Assembly: GCA_026210745.1 (NCBI GenBank)
Contig: CP110630.1
Span: forward strand, 5,270,001-5,334,000
Direction of reading: 5' to 3'
DNA: 64,000 nt
Origin: Exobasidium rhododendri
Lineage: Eukaryota > Basidiomycota > Exobasidiomycetes > Exobasidiales > Exobasidiaceae
The notes below the pieces were generated by a model, which had not been told where the DNA came from, did no database searches, and saw only the letters and a list, made by a program, of their open reading frames with translations. Below are positions 21,799 through 46,197 of the stretch, piece after piece (within the stretch, counting starts at the first letter, position 1; the number at the start of each line of letters is the position of its first letter). The translations under genes were made by a program, and so were the position numbers.

Positions 21799-22908
21799 AT
21801 GATACCGTCCAGTCCACACCCTCCGAAACGTCACTGGAGGAAACAGGTGAGCACAGCATTCATGGCGTAGTCTAGGCGCCAAATCGAGAGAATCGCTGAA
21901 TATCTCATGGTTTGGCAAGTACGCCTACGGAGAGTCGACTCATCAGGCACACAGATACAGATCGTCTACGACAGTAGATTATGAGCCCAAAGAATATCAT
22001 CGAGACTACTCTGCTCGTCGTCCGTTAGCCGAGCGTGAAGCTAACATGTACGGCAGCCGAAGAAAAGCACTTCACCGCTCTAGGTATTCTCCCGGTAGCT
22101 GTCCGAGCATCAAGCTCGAACAAGGAAGGCGACACTCTCGCGAGATTCGAGAATCGACACAATACACGCCCTATCCGGCGAGGAGACATCCCGCAATCGC
22201 CAGTACCAGCCATCGCTCCTTAGACGTACTGCAAGATGGCCTGACAAGCCACTTTGATGGAGTGCGACACGATCAACAGGGTGAGATCATGTATCAGAGG
22301 TCGATACAATCACTTCGTCGGATGAGGGAAACAAAGTACACTCGCGATCGTTTCATTCCACTCTGTCGTGCCATTAAAGCAAGCATGAGCAAGCTAGGAC
22401 ATGCCCTTGGCAGCAACGTCGAAAGCGAATTGCTCAGGACATACAAGAACCTTTTCCATTGGCTTCAGCTCGACTCTTTTCAGCAGTACGTCTTCGACGC
22501 CGTCAAGAGTGGAGTGGCGATCGCATACACACTCAATGTAGATGGCAAGGTTGCCAAGTTGTACTTTTGCTTGACCATCGACATGGTGCGAGACGAACGG
22601 AACACGTTGGATTCGATTGACAGGAGAGGCTGCCACGGTCCTCTTTTGCACAGCCGCTACATGCCGCTGTACCGAGCACTGCGCAAGAGTGTGACAGAGC
22701 AAGGATACGCTCTGGGATGCGACGTGGAGAATGAACTCGTAGCGGAAGACATCAACGTATATGGCAAGATTCACTTGGATGGATTTTTTCAGTACATCAA
22801 CGAGGCAATGGGCAACAAGGCGCCTATCAACGCAAACATCGAGGTAGATTACGTTGAGAAGATCTGGTTCTGCCCGACAGACGGCATGGTACGTGACAGT
22901 GCAGTGGA

Positions 22909-22996
<88 letters not shown>

Positions 22997-23933
22997 CGAT
23001 GCTGATCTTTGTGGAATGTTTCTCTACAGCTTCCCAGTCCCTTCGACGGCGTCCAGTGGCTTTGCAGCTCTGAAGGACACGACACTTTGACGAACAGCGC
23101 TCGTGCAGCAGATCGTAGTGAGAGTGAAAGTCAGAGCAAAGTACAGATCCAGGAAGGTTTCTGTGTGTATGCGGATGACGAGCTAGACGATAAAGGTGCA
23201 CTCCAAAGAAGTATACGTGAAGCAAGTAGGGGACCTGCTGAAGGGAGCAGAGGAGGAGTGGCGAATGACTGCTCTGGTGGACTGGGGGAGCAATTTACCC
23301 AGCCCGAGACAGCCCTCACCGAAAGGACTAGAGCGAGCAGTCCATTCTGTACGCCTCCCCCTCGTGGTCCAATTGTGGCGAGGAACACCGTCGATTTTGC
23401 TCACGTCGTGGTCAAGGTGGAAGGGGAGGAGCGGCCAGTGCAACAAACACCTTTAATTGCCACGACGGTATCAGTGAAGAGAGAAGAAGCCGTCAATGAA
23501 GCCCCGCCGTTCGTCGTGCAAGAGAACAGCATCAAGCAAGAAATCATCGTCAAGACAGAAGAGGAAGATGTCAAGCCAGATCTAAGCTTGATCATGAGCC
23601 AGGAGAGTCGGGATCTTTACGCACTTCTCTGCCTCTTTCTTGACATCGGCCTCGACAGCATCACCGCTTCTACTGTGGCCGAGCGATTGCAGTACACAGT
23701 CGCTTATGTCAGAACAATAGTCGAAAGCAGCAAGAAATATCCTGCACAGGAGCTGAAGCTGAAGTGGCGGGAATACATCGATGGGACAGACTCGTTGATC
23801 ACAGTCCTCTGGTGAGTGTCTCATAGGCGCTGGAGAAGGAGTGATGTAGAGCCGACTAGCTTTGCTCATGATGTGGCCATCTTTCTGCAGCATGTACAAG
23901 AACAAAGCGTACTTACGGCAGCTCCTGGCGTGA
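21799..23933 (+). CDS. Unrecognised protein with two tandem ~80-residue domains and SUMO-site cluster
   Basis: Exons 21799-21846, 21947-22888, 23030-23811 and 23891-23933 join in phase to 604 residues. I do not recognise the family. Two related blocks are visible, encoded about 22345-22590 and 22655-22890. They share the pattern R-aromatic-hydrophobic-PL.RA, then G.ALG..VE.EL, LD.F.QY, and an ending of K-hydrophobic-aromatic-FC.T..MV. They could be winged-helix-like units, but that is a guess. The C-terminal third has four psi-K-x-E motifs (VKVE, VKRE, IKQE, VKTE) and ends in a helical region. Intron 22889-23029 consists largely of a GA microsatellite. The first exon was chosen because MIPSSPHPPKRHWRKQ splices in phase through a 100-nt intron; ATG 22046 is the alternative start. 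Confidence 0.6.
22912..22988 (+). repeat. (GA)n microsatellite inside an intron
   Basis: About 77 nt of uninterrupted GA dinucleotides (roughly 38 units) within the 141-nt intron 22889-23029. It creates false open frames (Arg-Glu on plus, Ser-Leu on minus). It is likely length-variable between strains. Confidence 0.97.
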
Positions 23934-28261: not shown

Positions 28262-31200
28262 TTAGCTGCCCGGCGACATTTCTTCACCATCTGCGTTCAA
28301 AATCAAGCTAGCAGCAAAACTGGAAAGTCTCGCTCTAGGCTTCGGCCTCCTCTTGCCTCCTTCTTCTTCCTCCTCCTCCTTCCCCGCTTCTTCCTCGTCT
28401 TCACTGGACGCATCTCCACCATCGTTACCGCGATATCCTTGTTGAATCACCGGCCTTCTATGGTCTATCCTGCCTAGTTTCACTGCCTCTTCTCGAAGTT
28501 GTGGACTCGTCAGATAGACATCCGTGGTGCTCTCATTCCAGGCTGCTTCGACGAATCCTCCTGGCATCGCCCTTTCGGGCTTTTCGAGATAGCTGCCGAC
28601 TAACTTTTCCACATCTTCTGAGTTGCGCCTGTCTTTCAAGGACATCTGATAGGCACTGTCGTTGCTCATACTCTGTGGGCCTTGCAACGTCTCACCTGCA
28701 ACCTTTCGGTTCTTGTTCTTGGTCGGTGTCGCCGTCGTTGCTTCTGACTCTGATCGACTCGTGTCTGTCTCATCTCTCAAAGACGAACCAATCACCATCG
28801 CTTGACCTAGTCGACTACTCGACATGACAGGAGGCTTGAAGAACAGACCACTGAATGCCTCTTCTTCATGCTCGTCTGTGTTCCACAGCTCTCTCGCTGC
28901 TATACTCCTTGGCGAGTAATTGCTGTCGTCGGAACTGGAAGAAGACGGCTGCACGAAGCTGCCCTTGAACCCCCTACCTCTTGCATCCCCTCTACTCTGC
29001 CTGAATGACCCCGTCAAGCGTTCCTCTATACCGATGCTCCTATCGACCCTCGGAAGGATGTTCGCCTCTGATCCGGGTGATAGTAGCCGGTCCTGTATTC
29101 GATCGCCATCGGACACTCTCAATCGATTCAGGGTGGGCAAGATCATAGCATCCGAAGAGGTAGCAAAGCCTTCCATGGCAACGAAGGGGATGTTCGAGAG
29201 GGAAGGCGAAGGAGGCTGCAATCCAGAAGAGGATGTCTCGTCTGTTGATTCACTTGTAGAGTTCGCTCGAATGCTCCTCTGTCGACGAGGTGGAACGGGC
29301 AGTGATCTTTGCTGCTCCATGACTTCACTTACGGGAGACTGTGTGGACGTCTCCATCTGCCTGTGGTTCTCGTCAATCTTCGGTGTGCCTCGATTTGGTC
29401 CGAGGCTACTGCTTCGCACGGATAGTCTCCTTCCTGACTCAAAGTCACGGGGTGCCATGATGACCGGACTAGAAGACTTTGCAAGGCTCCTCTCCTCTTG
29501 GCCTCGTGTGCTCGTGGGAGTAGAGGAGAGCATAGAACGTAGGTCGTCACTCCCTGTTGGGTGATGATACCCAATCTTTGTCGCATGTCTGCCTGCGAAA
29601 AAGGTGGGATCTTTGGGGACGGTCTGACCGATATCAGGTCTAGGGGCGGAAAAGGCGATTCCATACGCATTGGACTGGGGTGAGGAGTCTACTTGCTTTC
29701 GGGCATTGACAGCTTGTGAGTTGGCGATAGAGAGAGGTGATCCGCCACGATCGACTTCCCCCTTCTCCCTCTTCCTTTCAGACGGCATTGACAGACGACT
29801 GATGACCACGGGCGTATCCGACACTACATGTGATTGAGTGGAGGAGGAGCGGTTCCTTCTGTAGTGGTGATCTACATCCAATCTATCCTGCGACATTCTT
29901 CTCGATGCGCTCTCATCCACGGCCGTCATGGTTTGAGAGCGTTGACGTCGAATAGAAGGAAAGCACGAGTCGACGTGAAAGAGACTACGTATAGACTCTT
30001 GACTCTTTGATCGTCTGCGCTGATGGCCTCGAGACGATAGCAGGGAAGGAAAGGGAATGCATGCCGTCGAGCTCTTCCCCCTCCTCTCTCCTCCTTCTTC
30101 AAGTAGACCTTTCTCTGTGCCACGTCGGGTGTTAGACGTACCGCCAGTCTGCGACAGTAAATCAGACTTTCCAGCGACGTTTTTATCTGCGTACTTGTGG
30201 AATGTCTTGAGATCAGGAAGCGGTTCTCGATAGTGAACTCTCTTCGCCTTGACGCCGTCTCCACCGCTCTTTGAAGATGAGGCTGCTGCCCGTATCATGT
30301 CATGGGACTTGCTCTTTCCTATGCTCTTCCGATGTTGTTCTCTCCACTTCTCTCTCTCTTCATCTAGTGCTCTGCCTTGAGCCAATACGGTTGCCAAATC
30401 GTCCTCTTCGTCACTTCCATCTGACAGCAGATGTGAATTGAGGGCAGGTATGGAAGACGGAGTAGGCGTCGTGCCGTTCAATCGTTTCGAGCGAGAAGAA
30501 CGACGAACTGGTATCGTGACAGGAGCCAAAGTTGCACCTTGGTTCATCTCGGGAGTAGGAGGGGGCATTCGATGGTGGAAGAGTCCTCCGCTCTCGCCCT
30601 TCTCATGAGAACGTCGGAACCTGCTGCCCAGCATCTCTTGCGCTTTGGCCGAATCAGACAATTGAGGATTACTCTGCGTTTGAAGTCGTCGATGTCGTTC
30701 AAAGGCAACTGCGCTACTGTTTGACTTCTCTTTCAAATCGTCCTTGCCGAGCAGAGGTCGAGGCATCAAGACCCTCTCGCAGCCGTTCTTGGTGTCCCAC
30801 CAGCCAGCGATGTCCGTCGAGTGAGTTTTCAGCTCGTCAAAGTGCATTTGTTGCAGCGATTTGTAGTTTTCGTTTGCTTCGATCATGCGAGACATCCTCT
30901 TCTCTTGTCCTTTGCCTAGAAAGCTTACTTCGTAATCAGAGGGGGGACCATGCTGATGTCCCGGCGTCGATGCAGAAATAGGCGAAAGTGTCCTATTTGC
31001 TGCCAAGTTGCCCAGTGGGTACTTTACTGGCAGATCCAACGAAGACATCTCTGATTTGGTCCAAGCTGATTCAGGAGATACGATCAGATCGCGCTTCTTC
31101 TCTTCAACGAAGTCTCTCGCGGTGACAGAGGGGTCAGGAAAGGACGCCTCCTGCTCCTCCATCTTCTCCTTTCCCTTCCTGGCAGTCTGCGAAGATGCGG

Positions 31201-33715: not shown

Positions 33716-36700
33716 TCACTCGGCAATCTCACTTTTGCCACCCTTGCCACCCATAATTGCAGTCAAGCCGATGAAGCCAGCAGTTGCACTCAGAGTTGAG
33801 AAGCCTGCCACAATGACCGTCTCTACCTTTCCTCCTGCCCTCGGTGGCTTCATTCGCTTGAATAGCGTTGCAGATGAAGGGCGAGTCCTTTCGACGTACT
33901 CTGCCTCGTGTGCAGTATCAGGCTGCCAGGATACTGCATAGAGTGAGAAGGATGTGATCGACATGAGTGACGTTGTTAATGGGAGGAGAATGGCTGAACG
34001 TCGATGTCGCATTGTCGGTGAAAGATAGTCACCTCCTCCTTTCTCGAAAAGAGAGGCCTTCCTCAGTCCTGGCGAATGTTCGTGACACCCGTCGATTTTG
34101 CTAAGCTGCCTGAGTAGAAACATTGTGAGCCACAGTGATCCCAGGGTCAGTGAGACGAGAAGAGAGAAAAGAGGGACAAGAAGTGGTGTCACTTGCGTAC
34201 GACTATTACCCGTACCGATCGATGTGACCAATTGGACATCACTGGAGTGACTACTTCGGGCACTAACTCCACTCAGATTTGCTCCGGAATGTATGTCTCT
34301 CCTTTCACCTTCTATGGTGTCCTCTTGAAAAGAGTCATGTTCAGAAAGAATTGGCATTCTGCGACTGATTATCTTGTTGTGAGCATTCGAGTTGACAATT
34401 TCAGAGAATAACGAAGAGGTAGGTGCGGATTTGATGGAAGGCTCGGAGCTGGTGGGCAGGTTGCAGGCGAGATCGGAAGTAGCTCTACCATCGCCAGAAG
34501 GTCGAGGATGTCTCTTCGCCATGATCATTTCGTCGTCACGATCATGTGCCGATAAGGCTCTCTCTTGTGGATTCCCTTGTTCATGATGACTCGGCAGGGG
34601 AGGGAAAGTGACGGTACCAGTACCACCTCCGATCGGTTTGATGCTGTCCTATCGAAGCAAGGAATGTACGAGAAATGTGACATTGAGTACATGTATAAAG
34701 TAGAGCTACATAGTGTGACTTACATTGTCTGGTAATGTAGCTCGCAGAAGACTACGGTCAGCTAGTCTAAATCCCAGACCACACTGAGGATGAGCACAAC
34801 CATCAAGACTACTCATCTCTTGATTATCGAGAAAGAGATCAGACCTGCCACTGAGAGCACTTGTACCGTTGTGATCGTGATCGCTTTCTCGACCAGAGGT
34901 GTCCAACGACATTCCTCTTCTTACGAGGTGCATCGATTCTTGACCTCTCGGTGCTGTCCTACCGGTAGCCTTTTCATTCTTTGCAAGATTGGGCTCACGC
35001 GAATCGACTTTTTGACTTGACGACCCTCCATGAACATATGTCGAGGTGCCTTCACGGTGATGATTTGGCAAAGTTCTCATCAGATCAGCGACGCTTGAGG
35101 TTGCCATGTTTCTTTCAGCTCTTTCTCTACTCCTCTCAGCTCTTACATCTGCATCCAACTTAATTTTGCAGGCGAGAATGCAGGGGAGCATGAGCAGACC
35201 TCCTCCCACAACCCCTCCACCTATCGCCAAGGTCTTTCCAGTACTCCAATTGTCATGCTGCTTGCTTCTGGGACTGTATTGCTTCGCCCCACTGGGAGTA
35301 TCGGGAGTTTGAGACGCTTCGGATGATTCATCTGGAGCGGAAAGTAGCTTTCTAGCCTGCTGATGTCTTGTCTTCTTCTTGTGAAGTTTTTTGCGGCTTG
35401 CGGCATCGACACTCACATCCACATTCCAGAATTCTGCAGCTGACGATTGCTTTTGCAGAGAGGTTTGAAAATCTTTTCCTTGCTTCAGAGCTTGTCTCTG
35501 CCGTTCCCTTACGACTCTCATGTCTGGCTTCTCGTGCAGACCTTCCACTCGTATCCTGTCGAGAGGTGCACTTCCGCCATCAGCTGCTAGGCCAAGAGCC
35601 TTCATTGCTGCCGTTGCCAGTACCGATGCGTCTTGGTCCTTCACCTGTCCCGCTGGAATGATCGAGCGCTTCACCAGACTAGGCCCTTTCACGGTGATGG
35701 TGTGCTGTGGTTCTCCTGGATTATTGTTGACCTGCTTCAGCTTCATTCCTCGTGCCTTCCTCTGACTTTGATCGCTCCCACCGAGATACGACATTGTTTC
35801 CTTGCGAGGGAAGCCACTCTCTATCGACTTCTTTCCTTTCCTCTCGGTCAAAGAGCCATCACTTGACTCGTCGGTCATGGCAGCGCTTTCTCTTGCTTTT
35901 CCTGCCATGACAGCCCTGTACGTTGCTGCAGCACCAAGACCCAACAGACCACTTGCTCCAGCTGCAAGACCGGCAATGGCGCCACCGCTGATCTTGTTGC
36001 GTGATGAATGCTCGCGTGGAAAGGATGTGATGACGCGGAAGCCGTCTTGATCGTTGTCGCTAGACGATGGTGCGAAAGATCTTGCGCTTGAATTTGGGGG
36101 AAGGTAAGCAGAAGACAACGGGTGATCCTTAGGTATTTGTGTCACGAAATGCGTTGCGTCGTCCAGCTCTGACGTGGATGTAGAGAAAGGAGCAACTGCA
36201 GCCACTCGTCCCCTTTCTAGTCTATCTGGCGTGAGTCTCCTCGCCCTTCCCGCCTTTCCCCCTTTTCTTTCCTTCTTTGTACTCTCGCTCTGTGCAATCA
36301 TCTTTGCACTTTTCTCGATCCGATTATCATCAACGTTATGCGGAATATTGAACTGCTCTCGTACTGCCGCTTCATCTGCCTTTGTAAAGTGGTAAATTTC
36401 TTGTCGAGGAAATCTATGCTGAAGAGCAGTACTTCCATAGCTCACCATGGGTATGTTGCTGATCGGGGTTGCTGCTATACCTTGATGGTAAATTTCTGGC
36501 ACGGTGGGAGCTCGCTTGACCAAACGACGCGGAAGCATCTCTTCGTTCGACTCGCCTCTCTTGACAGGGCTGAAGAATTCATCGTCACTCTCCCCTGGAT
36601 GACTGTTCTGCTCCATTAAAAGTAGCGGCTGCGATTTCATTCCAATCCCTCTTGCCTGTTCGTGTCTCAAAGGGTCGGCCTTGCTGGAGGATCGATTCCA

Positions 36701-39700
36701 AGCGTGTTTGACTGCATACGTGAGAGAGCCAAGAAGAGATGATATGCCTGTGAATCGCATTGCTCGCTTCAACGTCACATGATGCCATTCAAGAGGTGTG
36801 TCTTGCATGTAAACTTGAGTGACGAAGTGGTGATCTGCTACGCCTTGATTGCTGCTTCGAGTGGGTCGGTGTGAAGGAGTACCTTCGGTGTTGTCATGGT
36901 CTCGTGTCAGTGACACATAAGAAGGGACTAACGCATTTCCCATTGTGAAAGGAACTTCCACTTTCACAAAGGATGAGAGACGTTCTTGTAGGGCTTCGTG
37001 GTAGCTTGGAATAGCTATGACGCCTTGTCCATAGGAAAAAGTGTTCTTGAGCGGGGATGCTGGCACAAACTCGACCGGGTCCTGAAAAGCCAGGCCACGC
37101 TTCTTCAGCTTCAATCCTCTCCGCACTAATTCTTCCGGAGCCGAAAGAGGTTCTTGCCTCTTGAAGGCAGGCGGCACTTGTCCACCGGCTCGGCGAATCT
37201 CTGGCATCTGAACACCTGCCCCTCTTGGAAGTATTCTGACGCCTCGACATCGCTCATAGATCTTGCGAGCGCCCATAGCTGCTCCGGATAAAGCAAAGGC
37301 GCTCCCAAGACCAATTCCTAGCATTTTCGCAAACTTCTTGTCCGCCTTCCTCTCGGCTGCGAGCCTCTTTTTGTCGATTCGACGCCACTGACGCTGACGA
37401 CGAGGCTCATCACTTTCTGGCTCATCATGTTGCAAAACGTTGATGCCGTGCGCTTCTGCATTGTATCGCTGTGCGCTGTGCTCAGCTTGATATTCGAGGA
37501 ACTTTCTGTTCATCGTTGCTTCCTGTTGGCGGTAAAAGTGTGAATCGGGCTGGTGATAGAGACCCTCTACTGTGACTCTCTGCCCGTGACGTGCATTGGC
37601 TACAGCTGATATCAGCGATAGAGGGCTCGGTCTGGCTGATCCTGCTTCCTGTTGGACAATCAGCCCTGTCCCTGGTGCTCGTTTGACTAGACGGTGCACT
37701 GTCTCTTCGTTCGTGCACGCATCGAGGGGAGTAGCACATACAAGAAATGTGACGAAGACAGCCAACACCAAATGCCACAGCGAAAACCTGGAGGGACGCA
37801 AAGTGCCTGAAGATGAATTGGCGAATCCTCCTCCTGTGTCATCGTTGTTGTCTTCATCCGTTAGAGATGTGGGAGGCTGTACATCAAGAGATGATATCTG
37901 CTGCTGCTGCTGCTGCTGCTTGCCGGAGAAAATCATGAGGTCTTCTATAACAATACACAAGATAATAATAGAAAAAGATAATGCATCAGTGAAACCTATC
38001 CTTTTTCAGTCTGAAGTAGACTCGACACAAGCTCACCACTCTGTGAATTGAGTCGACCGGTATCCTCGCGAAGCTCTTCGAGTTGCTTCCAAAGACGCTC
38101 TTCGTTGCGATGTAAGGCATAGTCGACTATCTTGCTCGAATCGGTGTATAGCTGTTGCTTTACATCATCAGACGGCGCTGTGGTCAGAGTGTGAGGTGGG
38201 AAAGGACGAGCAGCCCCGCTGGGAGGGTAGAGGAGGTCACTGGAGCCATCTCGTCGCCGTAAGATAGCAGCACTTTCGTCGTCATAGTGTATTGAGTCGC
38301 GACGCTTCGCCATTGGCCGGTCTACATGTGGATCGGCAACAGGGTGCATGGCATGCTGTATCAGCCATGCCAGCAGCATCGCACCACCCACGCTTGCAGA
38401 TGCCTTTCCGGCCGACATCGTGCCCGTCTTTGCCCTCTTGTGCAGGAAGACGTCGTCAAAGTCATCATCAGTGCTTCTCTTTGCCTCATGTGAGTCTAAG
38501 TTGGACTTTGTTTCAGTCTCTTGCTCTGTGTGAGATGACAAGTCGACGTTGTTTGCAGACCTTTTCCTGTACGGCTGCTCTTGCTGAACCGGAGCACGGT
38601 TGACGAAGGTAGCTGCAAACCAAGTAGCGAGTGCAGCGATACCCGTTGCTTTAGCTACATCAGAAGACTTGAATCGTTTAGGTACTTTGCCTCGTTTGCT
38701 GAAAGTTGGTGCGATATCTTCCTCGCTTTTCTCATTTCCGGTCTGCGTCGACGGTGGTGACCCTACGAGGACTAGGTCCCTCTCCTTATTTTGATGAAGG
38801 CGCTGAACAGACTCTCCGAGCCTGGTCGGTGTGAGGCGATCCGAAGGTGGCGACAGTGAGGGATCGAGTTCATGCACCGATTCAGGAACAAGATCGAGCC
38901 GATTCGCATCATCGAAGAGAGCCCGCTTGACAAGATGTGAGGTAGTATTGACTTCTCTATCTCCTCTCTTTGCGGCGTCCATGTCTTCGTCGTCCTTACT
39001 GTCACCGACCATCTTGACGTCCTTCTTCTCCTTTTCGACCATCTTGACGTCCTTCTTCTCCTTTTCGACCATCTTGACAGCCTCTTTGTCCTCTTCCGCC
39101 TTCTTGACTACTTCATACACCCTGGCAACTTCCTTGTCTGTTGCACGATTCACCGCTGAATTCATCCACTTATTCGAGTGAGGATCACGGAACCCTAGCC
39201 AGGTGCGCACATTTTGAGGTATCATTGGGAGATGGACAGCTTGACGAATGAACGCAGACGACGCAGCTACTGCACTTGCAAATATCGTCAGAGCCAGAGC
39301 ATTTCGGGTCTTCTTGTGCCTCCCTAGGAATGATTTTGGCTCCTTGATTCCGTCCTTGTGTAGCTTCTTTCCTCGTCGCTTTCTGGAAGGCCATCTGACA
39401 ACTGACGGAGGAGGAGGGCCAGGCGTGTCCAGCATGGGTGGTTCGTATGGAGGGAGTTCCCCGATACTGTTGCCGTCTGGAGCACGCTTCAAGATGCTTT
39501 CTTCCGCATACACGAAGTCTGGGGATGTCCTTGCAGAAGCCCCCTTCCCGTGAGTGTTCGCCTCCAGCGGTACGAAATCGAAGCCGTATTCCAGTGGAGC
39601 AGGCGAAGTTTGAGTATCGACGCCAAACACATTGTCCTGAGACAATGAAGACCACTTGTGAGTTATGTATTGCGCTTGCAGCTCGCACATCCTCCTCTTA

Positions 39701-39822
39701 CTTACCTTCCTTTGACTGTGACCGCTGAAGTGGGAAGCCTGGGTTCCTTCGACAAAGAGCAGTGCACATAGGAAGAGCGTTCTAGCGTAGCAGGAGCCAT
39801 CCTTGTCGAGAGAAAGGCGCAT
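33716..39822 (-). CDS. Kex2-type polyprotein B (1956 residues, 4 exons)
   Basis: Exons 39706-39822, 38037-39636, 34724-37944 and 33716-34648 sum to 5871 nt, exactly 1957 codons. The N-terminus is a signal peptide (basic start, then LFLCALLFVEGTQA). Dibasic sites recur: ILKR (87-90), KR 262-263, LVKR (274-277), KR near 425 and 440, LVKR (658-661), and further LVKR or LVRR copies, many followed by A, G or S. A second strongly hydrophobic segment (LWHLVLAVFVTFLVC, about 628-642) stands just before LVKR 658-661, so the protein looks like two precursors joined. VEGL plus downstream R/K-rich helices (698 on, and a second copy) match the core module of gene A. Further Gly/Ala-rich hydrophobic segments occur, and exon 4 has three. 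A polyQ run follows the third acceptor. Role unknown; secretory-pathway processing is inferred. Confidence 0.7.
37899..37919 (-). repeat. CTG/CAG trinucleotide run coding polyglutamine
   Basis: Seven or so CAG codons (minus strand) just inside exon 3 of polyprotein B, giving the Q run after FSGK. Such runs are prone to length change. Confidence 0.9.
39007..39079 (-). repeat. 30-bp tandem repeat coding VKMVEKEKKD
   Basis: Two perfect 30-bp units (39007-39036 and 39037-39066) plus a partial third inside exon 2 of polyprotein B. They encode a Lys/Glu-rich decapeptide repeat (residues about 226-250) just before a KR-bounded acidic peptide. Confidence 0.95.
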
Positions 39823-40795: not shown

Positions 40796-43700
40796 CTAGA
40801 CCTCTTTTCGACCTTGAGACTTGTTAGGCGTAATAAGACTGCGTCCGAAAAGTGCAGTAGACGCTTCATCTTCTATCAACTCCCTCTTATTGAGTGCAGG
40901 ATTGCTGCACTCTCCTCTGCAATTGTTGCGACAGTAAAGACATGCAGCAGCTAATGTGCTAAGGGCAAATACTCCTGCCACGGTTCCAGTCACGATTGCT
41001 GCTTCCTTTTTCGATGTTTGGCCTACAGTGCCTGCATCACCACCTCCGCCTGCTCCTCTGTTCATGCCAGACGAAGCATCAATGCCATCATCGTCAGCAG
41101 AGACTCCATTACCCCTACTACCGCTGGCACCGCCAAAACCACGGCTGCCGCTACGACTACCACCGCCACTACGACTGCCACCGCCGCCGCCGCCGCCACT
41201 ACGACCTCCTCCACCACCGCCACCGCCTCCTTTCAAGAAGCGTCGATGCTCCTTCTTCTTCTCCCGATGAGCCTTCTTATCCTCTTTGACGAAATCTACA
41301 TCGTATGGAGGCAGGGGTGCATATGTCTGCTGATATCGAGCGTAGTACGTTTCCGGCTCTACCCTAGCAGGAGGCAAATGAAAGCCAGAAAACGATGGAG
41401 GGGGTGCGTAAGATTCAGCTTGATGATTCCATAACGGCGTGAGGCCCCTCTTCGTAAGTCTTGCGTCGGCAATGTCGTCACGATGCTTGAGTGAGCCTTG
41501 CTTCGAAGCGATCGCTGATAGGATAGAAGTTCGACCTGAGGGCGAGAGAAGCATGTCCTTTCCTACTTTGACGTCGTTGTCGACTATCATGTCATCTTCG
41601 TCATCGTAGTCAAAGTCAGCCTTGTTATTACCCTTGCGAGCCGCTCGATCCCCTCCAAAAAGCGCACTCCTGCCCTTCGAGACGCACTCTTCCTCGTGAC
41701 GTGCTAGGTCATCCTCTGGTAGCGCCCTCTTGTGCAACGGACGGCTGCTCAAGCAATCGAACTGTGCGGCGTCTCTAATTTTGTGGTTGGGAAATACATT
41801 GTACCGCTCAGAAGATCGGTAGTGAGGCCAGTCGTATGCGTCATGTCGACTCTCTCTCCGCAATGCTTCCGGTCGAGTCCATCCTAGCGGAGGATTGTCG
41901 TTGTAGGGATCGTCTTGAAACCGAGCAACTTGGGGCAATGCGTCCTGTCGACGCTCGGCGCGAGCTGCCGCTGTCTCTGATGTCGACGTAAAGGGCGACT
42001 TCACTTTCATCTTATCGAGTACCCCTTTGATGGCGTTCTTCGCAGACGATAGAGAGCCTTGACTTCGATATCTGAGATCCTCTACACCAGACTTGATCTT
42101 TCGAAGGGTTCTAGGGGTGTAATAGCATCCGGCAAGAGTAGAGGCACACATTGCCCCGATCATGGTTCCTTTCACTATCCTTTGCCCGGCATTGCCCTTG
42201 TTGGGATTCATTGCTCTCCCAGCACCATGCCATCCTCCCAAAGGCGGTGTCGTTCTCTCCTTTTCCTCCTTTTCCTTCTCCTTCTCATGGTCGCCACCAT
42301 AACCATAGCCGTAATACGTGGGAGTGTAATGCCACGGGGTTCTTGGCGTGTCACCGCTGGAGGTCGGCGTGGAACTCTTGGGAGAAGCGTTACTCTTCGA
42401 CTTTCGGTACTTCAACTCTCGCCGTGTCTCCGCACCGGCCTTCGAGCGCGCTATGCTCTTCTGCTCTTCACTGCTACTACCTTCGACGTGAGCTTGAGCC
42501 ATGGTGGACGTGGACGAGACGGTTGGTGGAGACGACATCTTCAGCTTCCTTGATTGTACACCTCTGCGACCGCCCTTCTTGTTTTCCTTCTTTGAGGCTG
42601 ATCCAATCGTATCATCTGCCTCATAGTCAAGTGGCGACGATGAACGAGGGGCAGGTGGACTGAAGCGAGTGTATTCATTGTGCCATTGCGTCATGAAATT
42701 CTGATGGTCAATCGTCGAGCCGAATGATGCCAGTCCAGCAAGAGGAGCGGAAGGGGGCCCAGAAGGATGCGCTGTGAGAGCCAAGGCCCTCTTAGCAAGG
42801 CGCTCTTCAAGACTTGTCTCACTCAACTCATTACCCTAATAGAGCAGTGGAAAGAACACAAAGGTCACACAGTCGTTTCAGCAGGTAATCTTATTAAAGG
42901 CAATCAAATATGCCCACTTACATTCTTGTTCAGCAGAGATGGGGTAGCATGACGTGAGGGTTCCTTACCGTCCTCCTCGACGAATAGACTGCAACGGCCA
43001 CTGGCAGCACAATTTTCTCTATAAGAAGCCTCTTGCTGTTCGAGTTTTGCCGAAGAATCGTGGGTCCTCATGACGGACGTCCGATCGTTCGCAACGGCAG
43101 AAGTGAAGGCAGAGGAGGAGCCAATCTCCGCCTCAGGAAGTACATGTACCGCTCTCCTGACTAGCACGCGATTGTCATCTTCTTCGATTTCTCTTTTCGT
43201 TCGATTCCTATTGAACAAGTTCCGAAGATTCTTCCTGCAAGCGATGCCAAGACCGGCAGTGGCTACGGCCGCACCAGTCGCAGCAGCACCCATGATGATG
43301 ATCTTTTTCTTTCCGGCGGGATCAGAATGCACGTTTGTGTTGTCGTTATTGCCAAAGCCAGCAGCACCATAGACAGTACCAGGAGCGTTGCCAGAAGTCA
43401 CAGTAGGATAAGCACCGGACACGGCGCCAGGAACATTGCCAGGATCAGTCGGGACTCCTTGAGGAAGAGGAGTAGAGCGTCCTTGTTGCGGGTCCATGTC
43501 GCTGGGCTGGTAGTTCTCCATGAAGTTGACATTATCGAATGCACTGGAAGCGCTGTCGGGGTGATCAGAACGCCACTTCTTTCGGTACTTCTTGCCCGCC
43601 CCCTTCATCATCTTGCGGTGCTCCTTGTACTCTTGTGGACCAGAGTCAGAGATAGGACGCATTCCCTTCACTCGGCCCCAGTGATCGTTGAAGGCCATGT

Positions 43701-46197
43701 TGCTTGTGAGGGGACCACTTGCGGACATTGGCGTCTGTGCCTCGATCCACGATTCAACTGGCGCTCGCTTGACTAGGGCGTGGTCACCACCTTCGCTTGT
43801 CGCCTCAAGAAGGACTTCTCTCTTAGAATGTGAGGCACCATGCGAGCGCGGTGGATGCGAGTCCGTTTGTGAATGTCTGAAGCACCTATGAGCGCGTGTA
43901 CAATAGGCACAAGAGGCCACAGCAAACACGGCACTCGCGGCAATAGCTCCTATCTCCAAGTTATTCCTGAACGCCTTCTCCTTGCGCAGATCGGCATCGT
44001 CCCTTGCAGCATTGTCATATCCCGTCCCCGTAACAGTGCCAGCAGCAGCCACTACGTCAGGAACGTTGCCAGGGCCTACAGCAGGATTGTTACTGACACC
44101 GGGAACAGTGCCGGTACCAGTGTACGGGTTGGAGCCCTGCTGAGGATTCATGTCGCTCGGTTGGTAATTCTCCATAAAGTTGACGCTGCCGAACGTACTG
44201 GAGGCGCTGCCAGAGTAATCGTCACGCCACTTCTTTCGATACGCTTTTCCCGCTCCTTTTGCCATCTTTCGATGCTCCCTGTATTCTTGAGCGCTAAAGT
44301 CAGAGACAGGGTGGAGACCCTGAACATGTGTAATACGGTGATTGAAGGAAGTCGCACCAGTGACAGGAGCACTCGAAGCTGGGAAAGCCTCTTTAATGGC
44401 TGGTACGACTGGCGCTCGCTTGACAAGGTGACTCTTGCTGTCCGTTTCAAAAAGAGGAGGAGATCGCCTCTTAAAGTGCGCCATCTCAGTCTCTTTGCCC
44501 TTGAAGATGTTGCCGATCTTCTTGACCTCGTCGATGGCGGTGCTTTCTCGTCTGCAGCAGCGAACGACACCGAGCACGGTACAGAGGGCAGCGCAAGAAC
44601 CAACGGCGATGCCTGCGATGGCGGGAGTCGAAAGAGAAGAAGAGTTGCCCTCTCCTTGCGATTCGACGCTGTACGGATTCGGATCGTATGGCTGGGTAGA
44701 GTCCATGAGCTCGGCAGAAGAGACTGTAGACGCTGAAGCACCCTTTGCCTGCTCCTTTGATTGTATGGACTTCTCGAAAGCGGCCCCCTCCCTCAACCAT
44801 CTCTCCCGTTGACGAACATTTTCCCGTGAATTGTGATCGTAGAGATGGTGGATACCTTTTACTTGAGCTCTGCCACCGTGCGAAGATGGAGCAAAGGTGG
44901 GAGAAGAGCTATACCCAGAAGAAGGTGCCACTACCTCAAGCAAAGCTTCCCCTACTGGTGCTCGTTTGACAAGACTGTGATCAGCACCGTTGCCTGGGTC
45001 TGGAGATAATTCTTCCCTTTTGACCCTTCTGATTCTTGCTCTCAATCCAGCATTCTGCTGTCGTAGACCGTCCTTCTCGCTCTTGTTCACGACGCACCAA
45101 CCTACACCGCAGATCGTGCCGGCAAGAACTCCAGCAGCCCCCACAGCACCACCGATCTTGGCGCCCGTTGGGAGATTTGAGAACCAGCCTCCTTGAGAAG
45201 CTTCAGAGACGTCAGTTGATTGCGGATTGGTGTTGAAGGACTGATCGTCGCCGTCGAGTAACATGGCATTGGAGGCGGTAGCAGAGGAGCTTTCAGGGTG
45301 CTCGGCGTACCACTTCTCCTTGTAGGCCTTTCGCTCTCCCTTCAACGCTTTACGATGGTCACGGAACTGAGGCGATCGAGGATCGAAAACGGGTGGCATA
45401 CCTTCCACTTGAGCTTGGGGTTCCTTGAATGCAGTTGCGCTGTGAAAGGCACTACTAGCTGAGGGGGTCACTGCTTCCATGCTAGTGCCTGCCGGTGCTC
45501 GCTTGACTAACTTGTGAACTCTTCCATCACGAACATCCGACGCAGACAAATGTCTCTTTGTCATTCTGCCTTGAATCATTTCAATATTTCGATCCTCTTC
45601 ACGTTTAGCTCTAATGCAGTCCACGATGTTCTTGCAATTTAGGGCCACACCAAGGAGAACAGCGCCGCCCAAAGTACCTGCTGCTACGCCCTCTACTATA
45701 GTCTTCGTGCTCAACGTGTTGCTCGTCGGGTCTCCAGTAGTATCAGTGCCAGCTTCGGTGAAAGGGACCGCGTCAGAGCCAGTGACGGTGCTGCCAGAGC
45801 CTTGTTGTGAGGACGAGTCTCTTGGTTGATTGTAATCCATCAGCTTGACATCGTTGTAGAACTCAGAGGCTCTACCTGGGTGTCTTGCGTGCCAGTCTTC
45901 TCGATAAGCCTTTCCTGAATTTTGCATCAACTTCCGATGTTTACGGTACGTTGGCGATTGAGCATCGACAACGGGGTGAATACCTTCCACTTGAGCTTTG
46001 GGAACGAAAATGGTAGTAGGGCCTGATGATGACAGTGGAGCTATCACGTCAAATTGCCCTCCAGTGGGTGCTCGCTTGACCAGATGACCTGCACGATTTC
46101 CCTCACCGCTGGCATTCACGACGTAACAGCTGATGAAAAGGACAGCCATGATACCTTTACGCATGGCGGACTCGAATGGCTTGCTTCGAAGAGTCAT
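40796..46197 (-). CDS. Kex2-type polyprotein A (1771 residues, 2 exons, five repeat units)
   Basis: Exons 42922-46197 (1092 codons) and 40796-42835 join in phase 0 through an 86-nt intron. The first ATG (46197) leads into a signal peptide (MAVLFISCYVVNA, residues 17-29). LVKR occurs at 39-42, 230-233, 409-412, 591-594 and 808-811, and LVRR at 1012-1015, spaced 179-217 residues and mostly followed by AP. Each unit has a V(E/K/Q)G motif, a D, a YR.HRK..K..K.YR.KW helix (degenerate in unit 3), in most units an SA.S.F..V.FM..YQP.D.NPQ region, a Gly/Ala hydrophobic segment followed or overlapped by Cys, then a second dibasic site. Exon 2 adds KR sites (LAKRA, LHKRA, LTKRG, NKREL), a Gly-rich tract and a hydrophobic segment near the C-terminus. 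Kex2/furin-type processing in the Golgi is inferred; the family is not one I know. Confidence 0.75.
41127..41235 (-). repeat. Gly-rich (GGC/GGT) coding tract
   Basis: Low-complexity sequence in exon 2 of polyprotein A encoding runs of Gly broken by RSGG and GSRSGG. It precedes the last hydrophobic segment of the protein. Confidence 0.9.
43153..46071 (-). repeat. Five tandem polyprotein units between dibasic sites
   Basis: Unit bounds, each starting just after LVKR: 45499-46071, 44962-45498, 44416-44961, 43765-44415 and 43153-43764. Units 4 and 5 are closest: both contain KGAGK.YRKKW, SASS.F, VNFMENYQPSDM and PQQG. Unit 3 is the most diverged in the central helix. A remnant sixth unit begins after LVRR. 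Confidence 0.85.

Follow-up and report, generated by a model that had tools for sequence, protein, structure and literature searches.

We describe gene A, a predicted gene in the window (the 64,000-nucleotide stretch of the Exobasidium rhododendri genome analyzed here, positions 5,270,001 to 5,334,000 of contig CP110630.1, assembly GCA_026210745.1), which codes on the minus strand (40796..46197 of the window) for a putative Kex2-processed polyprotein of 1771 amino acids (aa). We propose, with a probability of roughly 0.55, that its product is a secreted, lumenal pre-pro-polyprotein that would be cleaved by Kex2 to free membrane- or surface-attaching products. It would thereby be a variant of the KEX2-processed repeat proteins (KEPs) with surface- or membrane-active products; judged from its translation, the architecture appears real and far from chance and the mechanism plausible.

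Repeat units and candidate processing sites of gene A

The motif LV[KR]R occurs six times in the gene A protein, at residues 39, 230, 409, 591, 808 and 1012 (spacings of 191, 179, 182, 217 and 204 residues), whereas 2000 shuffles have 0.05 on average and never more than 2, and AP follows at five of the six sites. The stretches between these sites are five homologous units with pairwise identities of 23-47%. BLASTP among 13 gene A fragments, run with composition correction off, links nine of the ten unit pairs (E 1e-41 to 1.5e-4), units 2 and 3 having no mutual match at E up to 10. All five units carry V[EKQ]G[LMI] 27-33 residues behind LVKR (0.16 occurrences expected in the protein) and a KR 10-29 residues behind their hydrophobic segment. 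A basic segment in the polar part is amphipathic to a degree reached by 11, 7 and 23 of 1000 shuffles in units 1, 4 and 5, respectively; it is borderline in unit 2 (56/1000) and not amphipathic beyond chance in unit 3 (213/1000). A preliminary description of this DNA had reported six LVKR or LVRR sites in the first exon opening five units at a spacing of 179-217 residues, with a VEG-type motif, a second KR and a charged helix in each; the first three of these claims stand as made, and the helix, said to be degenerate in unit 3, corresponds to a basic segment in every unit, weak in unit 3, whose amphipathic character holds for units 1, 4 and 5, is borderline in unit 2 and is no more than chance in unit 3.

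The placement of the remaining dibasic sites is likewise regular. A KR lies 8-15 aa ahead of LV[KR]R at five of the six sites, which none of 2000 site-preserving shuffles reached. The final KR-to-LV[KR]R stretches (the last part of linker 1, and linkers 2-5) are 14, 14, 13, 14 and 9 aa long with net charges of +1, -4, 0, -4 and -4, i.e. acidic in three of five, and unit 1 has two KR ahead of the next LVKR. Glu stands directly behind the segment-trailing KR in five of the seven hydrophobic units (five in exon 1, two in exon 2). The common plan of the five units is LVKR, AP, 113-154 polar residues, a hydrophobic stretch of 19-23 residues, 10-29 residues to KR, a linker and the next LV[KR]R; nine of the 12 invariant columns of the unit alignment fall in the polar part.

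Reading frame, intron and coding evidence

Exon 1 (46197-42922; ATG at 46197, 1092 codons) and exon 2 (42835-40796) join in frame across a predicted intron of 86 nt with the ends GTAAGT...TAG (42836..42921). This bears out the polyprotein frame and the intron first described for this locus, with the strand corrected to minus. Were the intron retained, its sixth codon would be a stop. The P4-ATPase gene in the same window has two introns with the ends GTATGT..CAG and GTGAGA..CAG, of about 66 and 81 nt (by eye, against the annotated protein), similar in ends and sizes to that of gene A. Codon usage correlates with that of four housekeeping-type open reading frames (ORFs) at r 0.57 for exon 1 and 0.50 for exon 2, whereas exon 1 in other frames or on the antisense strand reaches 0.23-0.37. 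The closest unit pair, 4 and 5, has dN 0.49 and dS 1.51, which suggests that the protein was kept by selection; the other nine unit pairs have dS of at least 1.9 or not computable. From the frame and the site pattern we infer both the splicing of gene A and the cleavage of its precursor.

Hydrophobic segments, cysteines and topology

Seven of the nine gene A pieces carry one hydrophobic segment apiece, each reached by 0-4 of 200 unit shuffles. Their predicted free energies (dG) range from +1.67 to -0.49, or from +1.53 to -0.87 with more window lengths, and Gly, Ala and Ser make up 33-52% of them. Outside the signal peptide, 18 of 22 Cys lie in these segments or at most seven residues behind them, in stretches that amount to 11.7% of the protein; this clustering may point to lipid attachment or cross-linking. 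A hydrophobic segment with nearby Cys, as originally claimed for each of five units, is present in 5/5, the segments being marginal and not strong membrane spans; the count of segment-bearing units rises to seven with two diverged ones in exon 2.

If each segment were a span, every second LVKR would be cytosolic, beyond the reach of Kex2 and free to drift. All six copies of the motif are retained, whether the unit is odd- or even-numbered. The charge on the C-side is equal to or greater than that on the N-side at 7/7 segments, with no alternation along the chain. Since the segments are marginally hydrophobic and all LV[KR]R are kept, we infer a wholly lumenal precursor whose segments would act only after cleavage. 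This bears directly on the strongest rival, which we regard as unlikely, namely a multi-pass membrane protein whose segments span the membrane, whose units alternate between lumen and cytosol, and in which Kex2 cuts every second LVKR to yield two-unit hairpins. Such a protein would account for seven segments that at most four of 200 unit shuffles reach and for a dG range that overlaps that of the P4-ATPase segments of the same window; it is at odds with the retention of LV[KR]R in odd and even positions, of AP after five and of KR ahead of five of the six sites, as well as with the flanking charges and the marginal character of the segments.

Proposed processing and predicted products

In the lumenal reading, the predicted signal peptide (46111..46197; core from Met12, hydrophobic peak at residues 11-29, cleavage site placed by eye) would direct the gene A precursor into the endoplasmic reticulum (ER); a short stretch ending in HLVKR comes after this peak. 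The Gly/Ala-rich segments would be too weakly hydrophobic for a reliable stop of translocation, leaving the chain in the lumen, where a late-Golgi kexin would cut behind LVKR and behind the KR trailing each segment, excising the short linkers, and a Ste13-type dipeptidase might trim AP from the product N-termini. In the E. rhododendri genome searched (17.65 Mb, 4 contigs), we found one P-domain protein, which finds its best PDB matches in chains named Kexin (E 8e-107), and one DPPIV_N protein, which could serve as Ste13. The assignment to Kex2-type precursors in the preliminary description is therefore upheld for the architecture (signal-like N-terminus, LVKR-AP, paired KR, kexin gene), with cleavage in vivo a prediction from it.

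The output would be five related products of about 157-199 residues, together with two or three diverged ones. Each of the five would consist of a polar part of 113-154 residues (bearing V[EKQ]G and the basic segment), a hydrophobic helix with Cys and a C-terminal basic tail; through the helix the products might anchor in membranes or assemble on the cell surface. All pieces are on the minus strand. The predicted unit 1 product (residues 43-199, AP...AKR; 45601..46071) has its segment at 45631..45687 (dG +1.32) and is followed by linker 1 (45499..45600), 34 aa with a further TKR inside and the ending KLVKR. The unit 2 product (residues 234-394; 45016..45498) has its segment at 45088..45156 (+0.95), ahead of linker 2 plus LVKR (44962..45015). 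The unit 3 product (residues 413-577; 44467..44961), with its segment at 44554..44622 (+0.13), precedes linker 3 plus LVKR (44416..44466); the unit 4 product (residues 595-793; 43819..44415), with its segment at 43891..43959 (+0.95), precedes linker 4 plus LVKR (43765..43818); and the unit 5 product (residues 812-1002; 43192..43764), with its segment at 43234..43302 (+1.14), precedes linker 5 plus LVRR (43153..43191). Beyond these, piece 6 (42788..43152; 93 aa, ending LAKR) crosses the intron and is without a hydrophobic segment (best dG +6.27). The diverged unit 7 (residues 1109-1462; 41726..42787) has its segment at 42116-42178 (+1.67) and ends in LHKR 130 residues behind it. Piece 8 (41447..41725; 93 aa, acidic, ending LTKR) again is without a segment (best dG +5.54), and the Gly-rich unit 9 (residues 1556-1743, ending NKR; 40883..41446) has the strongest of the seven (40928-40996, dG -0.49).

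An alternative that we consider quite improbable takes gene A for a soluble precursor of membrane-attacking peptides after the manner of Ece1/candidalysin, in which the segment with its basic tail is the active part and the rest a pro-domain. In six of the seven hydrophobic units, the segment plus basic tail indeed ends at a KR 10-29 residues behind, the genus is parasitic, and KK, a weaker dibasic pair, stands just ahead of the segments of units 5 and 9. Release of a short peptide of this kind calls for KR on both sides, and no KR or RR shortly precedes any of the seven segments: units 1-5 have none from their opening LVKR up to the segment, and in units 7 and 9 the closest RR upstream of the segment lies some 80 residues away. 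The share of the polar part in the invariant columns (9/12) also speaks against this alternative.

It is rather doubtful that gene A codes for an uncut cell-surface or wall protein that has LVKR and KR in its repeat for other reasons. The near-chance total of dibasic sites would agree with this, but their position, pairing and spacing are far from chance, and LVKRAP-coding sites are almost confined to gene A and the neighboring polyprotein CB (see below), which hold seven of the eight such sites genome-wide (backward control 0). The eighth, at locus L015, does not share the reading frame of the reductase-like ORF found at that place (by eye). The pattern LVRRAP was rejected as a marker, its nine matches, against 14 in the backward control, being no more than chance. 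Finally, a precursor of surface-active repellent peptides like Rep1 of Ustilago maydis, a narrower form of the preferred reading, has the same subphylum, a Kex2-cut repeat precursor and amphipathic products in its favor, and is very improbable given that Rep1 peptides are described as 37 aa long, while gene A products would be four to five times longer and have a distinct hydrophobic segment (PMC6339444, PMC7329392).

Several observations weigh against the secreted, Kex2-processed polyprotein that we favor. The gene A protein holds 23 KR or RR where 16.4 are expected and 2000 shuffles reach up to 31, and therefore the case rests on the position of the sites and not on their number. The dG values are approximate, and control ORFs that should not span membranes overlap with the segments: the TBC/EF-hand ORF has segments at +0.77 and +1.63 and the SYO1-like ORF at +1.73. 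Other controls have their best dG at +2.41 (acetate kinase), +2.65 (FBPase) and +1.54 (lipase-like ORF), the ORF at 28262 has no segment under dG 3, and the P4-ATPase has 13 under that value, from -2.0. The contrast is therefore clear for the set of segments and not for each of them. Units 3 and 9, by their dG, could well be real membrane spans, and the diverged units 7 and 9 match the unit module at a level reached by 31 and 25 of 1000 shuffles.

Conservation, too, finds no support in relatives elsewhere with the queries used. In a set of 5.8 billion proteins (8000 candidates scored per query), the whole of exon 1 had no relative at E up to 0.001 and units 4-5 none at E up to 10; since this search needs shared 5-residue words, compared candidates of about 600-1911 aa, and covered these two queries only, it is no proof of absence. 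Ten clusters in this set have ATPases 73-81% identical to the P4-ATPase of the window, which suggests that nearer relatives are present there.

Comparison with known precursors

The yeast alpha-factor precursor resembles gene A in its KR sites, acidic spacers and dipeptides for Ste13, and differs in releasing a soluble pheromone of 13 residues.

The KEPs (PMC6339444, PMC7329392, PMC9769878), as far as the available text of these reports describes them, share with gene A a signal-like N-terminus and three or more similar units bounded by dibasic sites, and the XP dipeptide behind the cut is the Ste13 signature of PMC6339444; gene A is unlike them in its units of 179-217 aa, with identities of 23-47% and a hydrophobic segment in each. 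In the same portions, one screen discarded proteins that TMHMM predicts to be membrane-bound and has KEP motifs of up to 352 aa on record (PMC6339444), another admitted repeats of 8 to 100 aa between Kex2 sites (PMC7329392), and that of the Agaricomycetes excluded precursors over 800 aa (PMC9769878). Gene A has five homologous units where Le Marquer 2019 calls for three or more similar fragments bounded by KR/RR sites, and a hydrophobic N-terminus, with a short stretch ending in LVKR after it, where that definition asks for a signal peptide by SignalP, but its units of 179-217 aa exceed the repeat limit of Umemura 2020 and its 1771 aa the Agaricomycete limit; judging by dG, it may also be flagged by TMHMM and hence dropped by the Le Marquer screen. 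This amounts to a blind spot, in that two of the three screens exclude the gene A protein and the third probably does.

Ece1 of Candida albicans, as presented in the accessible part of PMC5784256, is the nearest working analogue, with several KR sites in one precursor, cleavage by Kex2 and then Kex1, and a membrane-active product; it differs in being 271 aa long and freeing a lytic peptide of 31 aa, while the gene A segment would sit at the C-terminal end of a much longer product (about 160-200 aa). Rep1 shares with gene A the Ustilaginomycotina, a Kex2-cut repeat precursor and surface-active products; its 37-aa amphipathic peptides, compared here by description only, have no per-unit membrane-type segment mentioned in the available portions of PMC6339444 and PMC7329392. 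The earlier claim that no known precursor has a membrane-like segment per unit is accordingly narrowed: Ece1 releases a membrane-active peptide and KEP repeats reach 352 aa, and the apparent novelty is that all the repeated products, of about 160-200 aa, have a membrane-type segment. In the open-access literature, we found among the matches listed no fungal Kex2 precursor with membrane-type units by title or abstract opening, and no KEX2-processed repeat protein for Exobasidi- taxa.

More tentatively, gene A may represent a class of fungal precursors that carry several single-helix membrane or surface proteins per chain, whose segments slip through the translocon and become active once freed by Kex2, a possibility that we hold to be less probable than the reading of gene A itself; the neighboring and diverged genes A and CB would follow the same plan. 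Such a class would go unseen in KEP searches, since these discard proteins that are long, membrane-like or made of long repeats. If the products are real, a single gene supplies several related membrane-type proteins in equal amounts, and it would have to be explained how a chain bearing repeated hydrophobic segments gets across the ER membrane in one piece. The life cycle of Exobasidium species includes a yeast-like stage and one that is parasitic on Ericales, E. rhododendri CBS101457 being named in the available text of PMC13010171, which gives 17.7 Mb for the genome of the congener E. phylloplanum; the genus being a biotrophic plant parasite, surface products may bear on host contact.

The second polyprotein CB, searches and neighboring genes

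CB (34706..39822, minus strand) is a second, diverged polyprotein of 1674 aa if joined in silico, with six LV[KR]R. The ORFs 39822-37996 and 37960-34706 are mutually in frame across a predicted 92-nt intron (38036-37945, GT...AG), giving exon 1 (39822-38037) and exon 2 (37944-34706). KR lies 8-15 residues ahead of LV[KR]R at three of its six sites, which two of 2000 shuffles reach. The unit module was matched clearly in two of the nine diverged units or pieces tested in gene A and CB together, namely B1 and B4, out of six tested in CB (2 and 3 of 1000 shuffles); besides units 7 and 9 of gene A, the others were its piece 6 (66), C2 (218), C1 (460), B3 (893) and B2, which gave no score. A whole-unit profile matches weakly both CB, with 4.6 bits where 200 CB shuffles give no more than 2.3, and gene A exon 2, with 5.5 bits where 200 shuffles give no more than 3.3. 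Five of eight CB pieces have hydrophobic segments at 0-3 of 200 shuffles, one of these being the signal peptide, and the others stand at 11, 21 and 108. An internal signal-like segment (dG -1.17) lies just ahead of one LVKRAP site of CB; it could mark where a separate gene really starts, act as an internal signal or be left over from a gene fusion.

A search for repeats elsewhere in the genome, for which exon 1, units 4-5 and B served as queries, retrieved their own genes only, few candidates having been compared. Known domains were rejected, Pfam matches lying far under the cut-off (best E 0.14 for exon 1 and 0.024 for ORF D, below) with none for exon 2, B or C; NCBIfam gave no family over cut-off for four ORFs, and the best PDB match of the unit profile had E 0.55. 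A viral polyprotein was rejected as well: one peptide pattern run against IMG/VR gave 27 pattern matches, of which tblastn confirmed 0. The P4-type ATPase of the window is identical, across the 501 residues searched, to the E. rhododendri protein with locus tag CBS101457_002222. It is in the protein database, yet no protein with gene A exon 1 was found there; public annotation may lack or mis-size gene A.

ORF D (33716-34528, minus strand, 270 aa), directly behind CB, has three hydrophobic segments and one LFKR and may be a third member. A motif around G-R-S/C-x-L-F or A-L-F-G-R is seen near acidic piece ends, at residues 1067, 1480 and 1754 of gene A and 1628 of CB. Elsewhere in the window, the ORF 22046-23005 on the plus strand has a run of Arg-Glu dipeptides and appears, by eye, to be internally duplicated.

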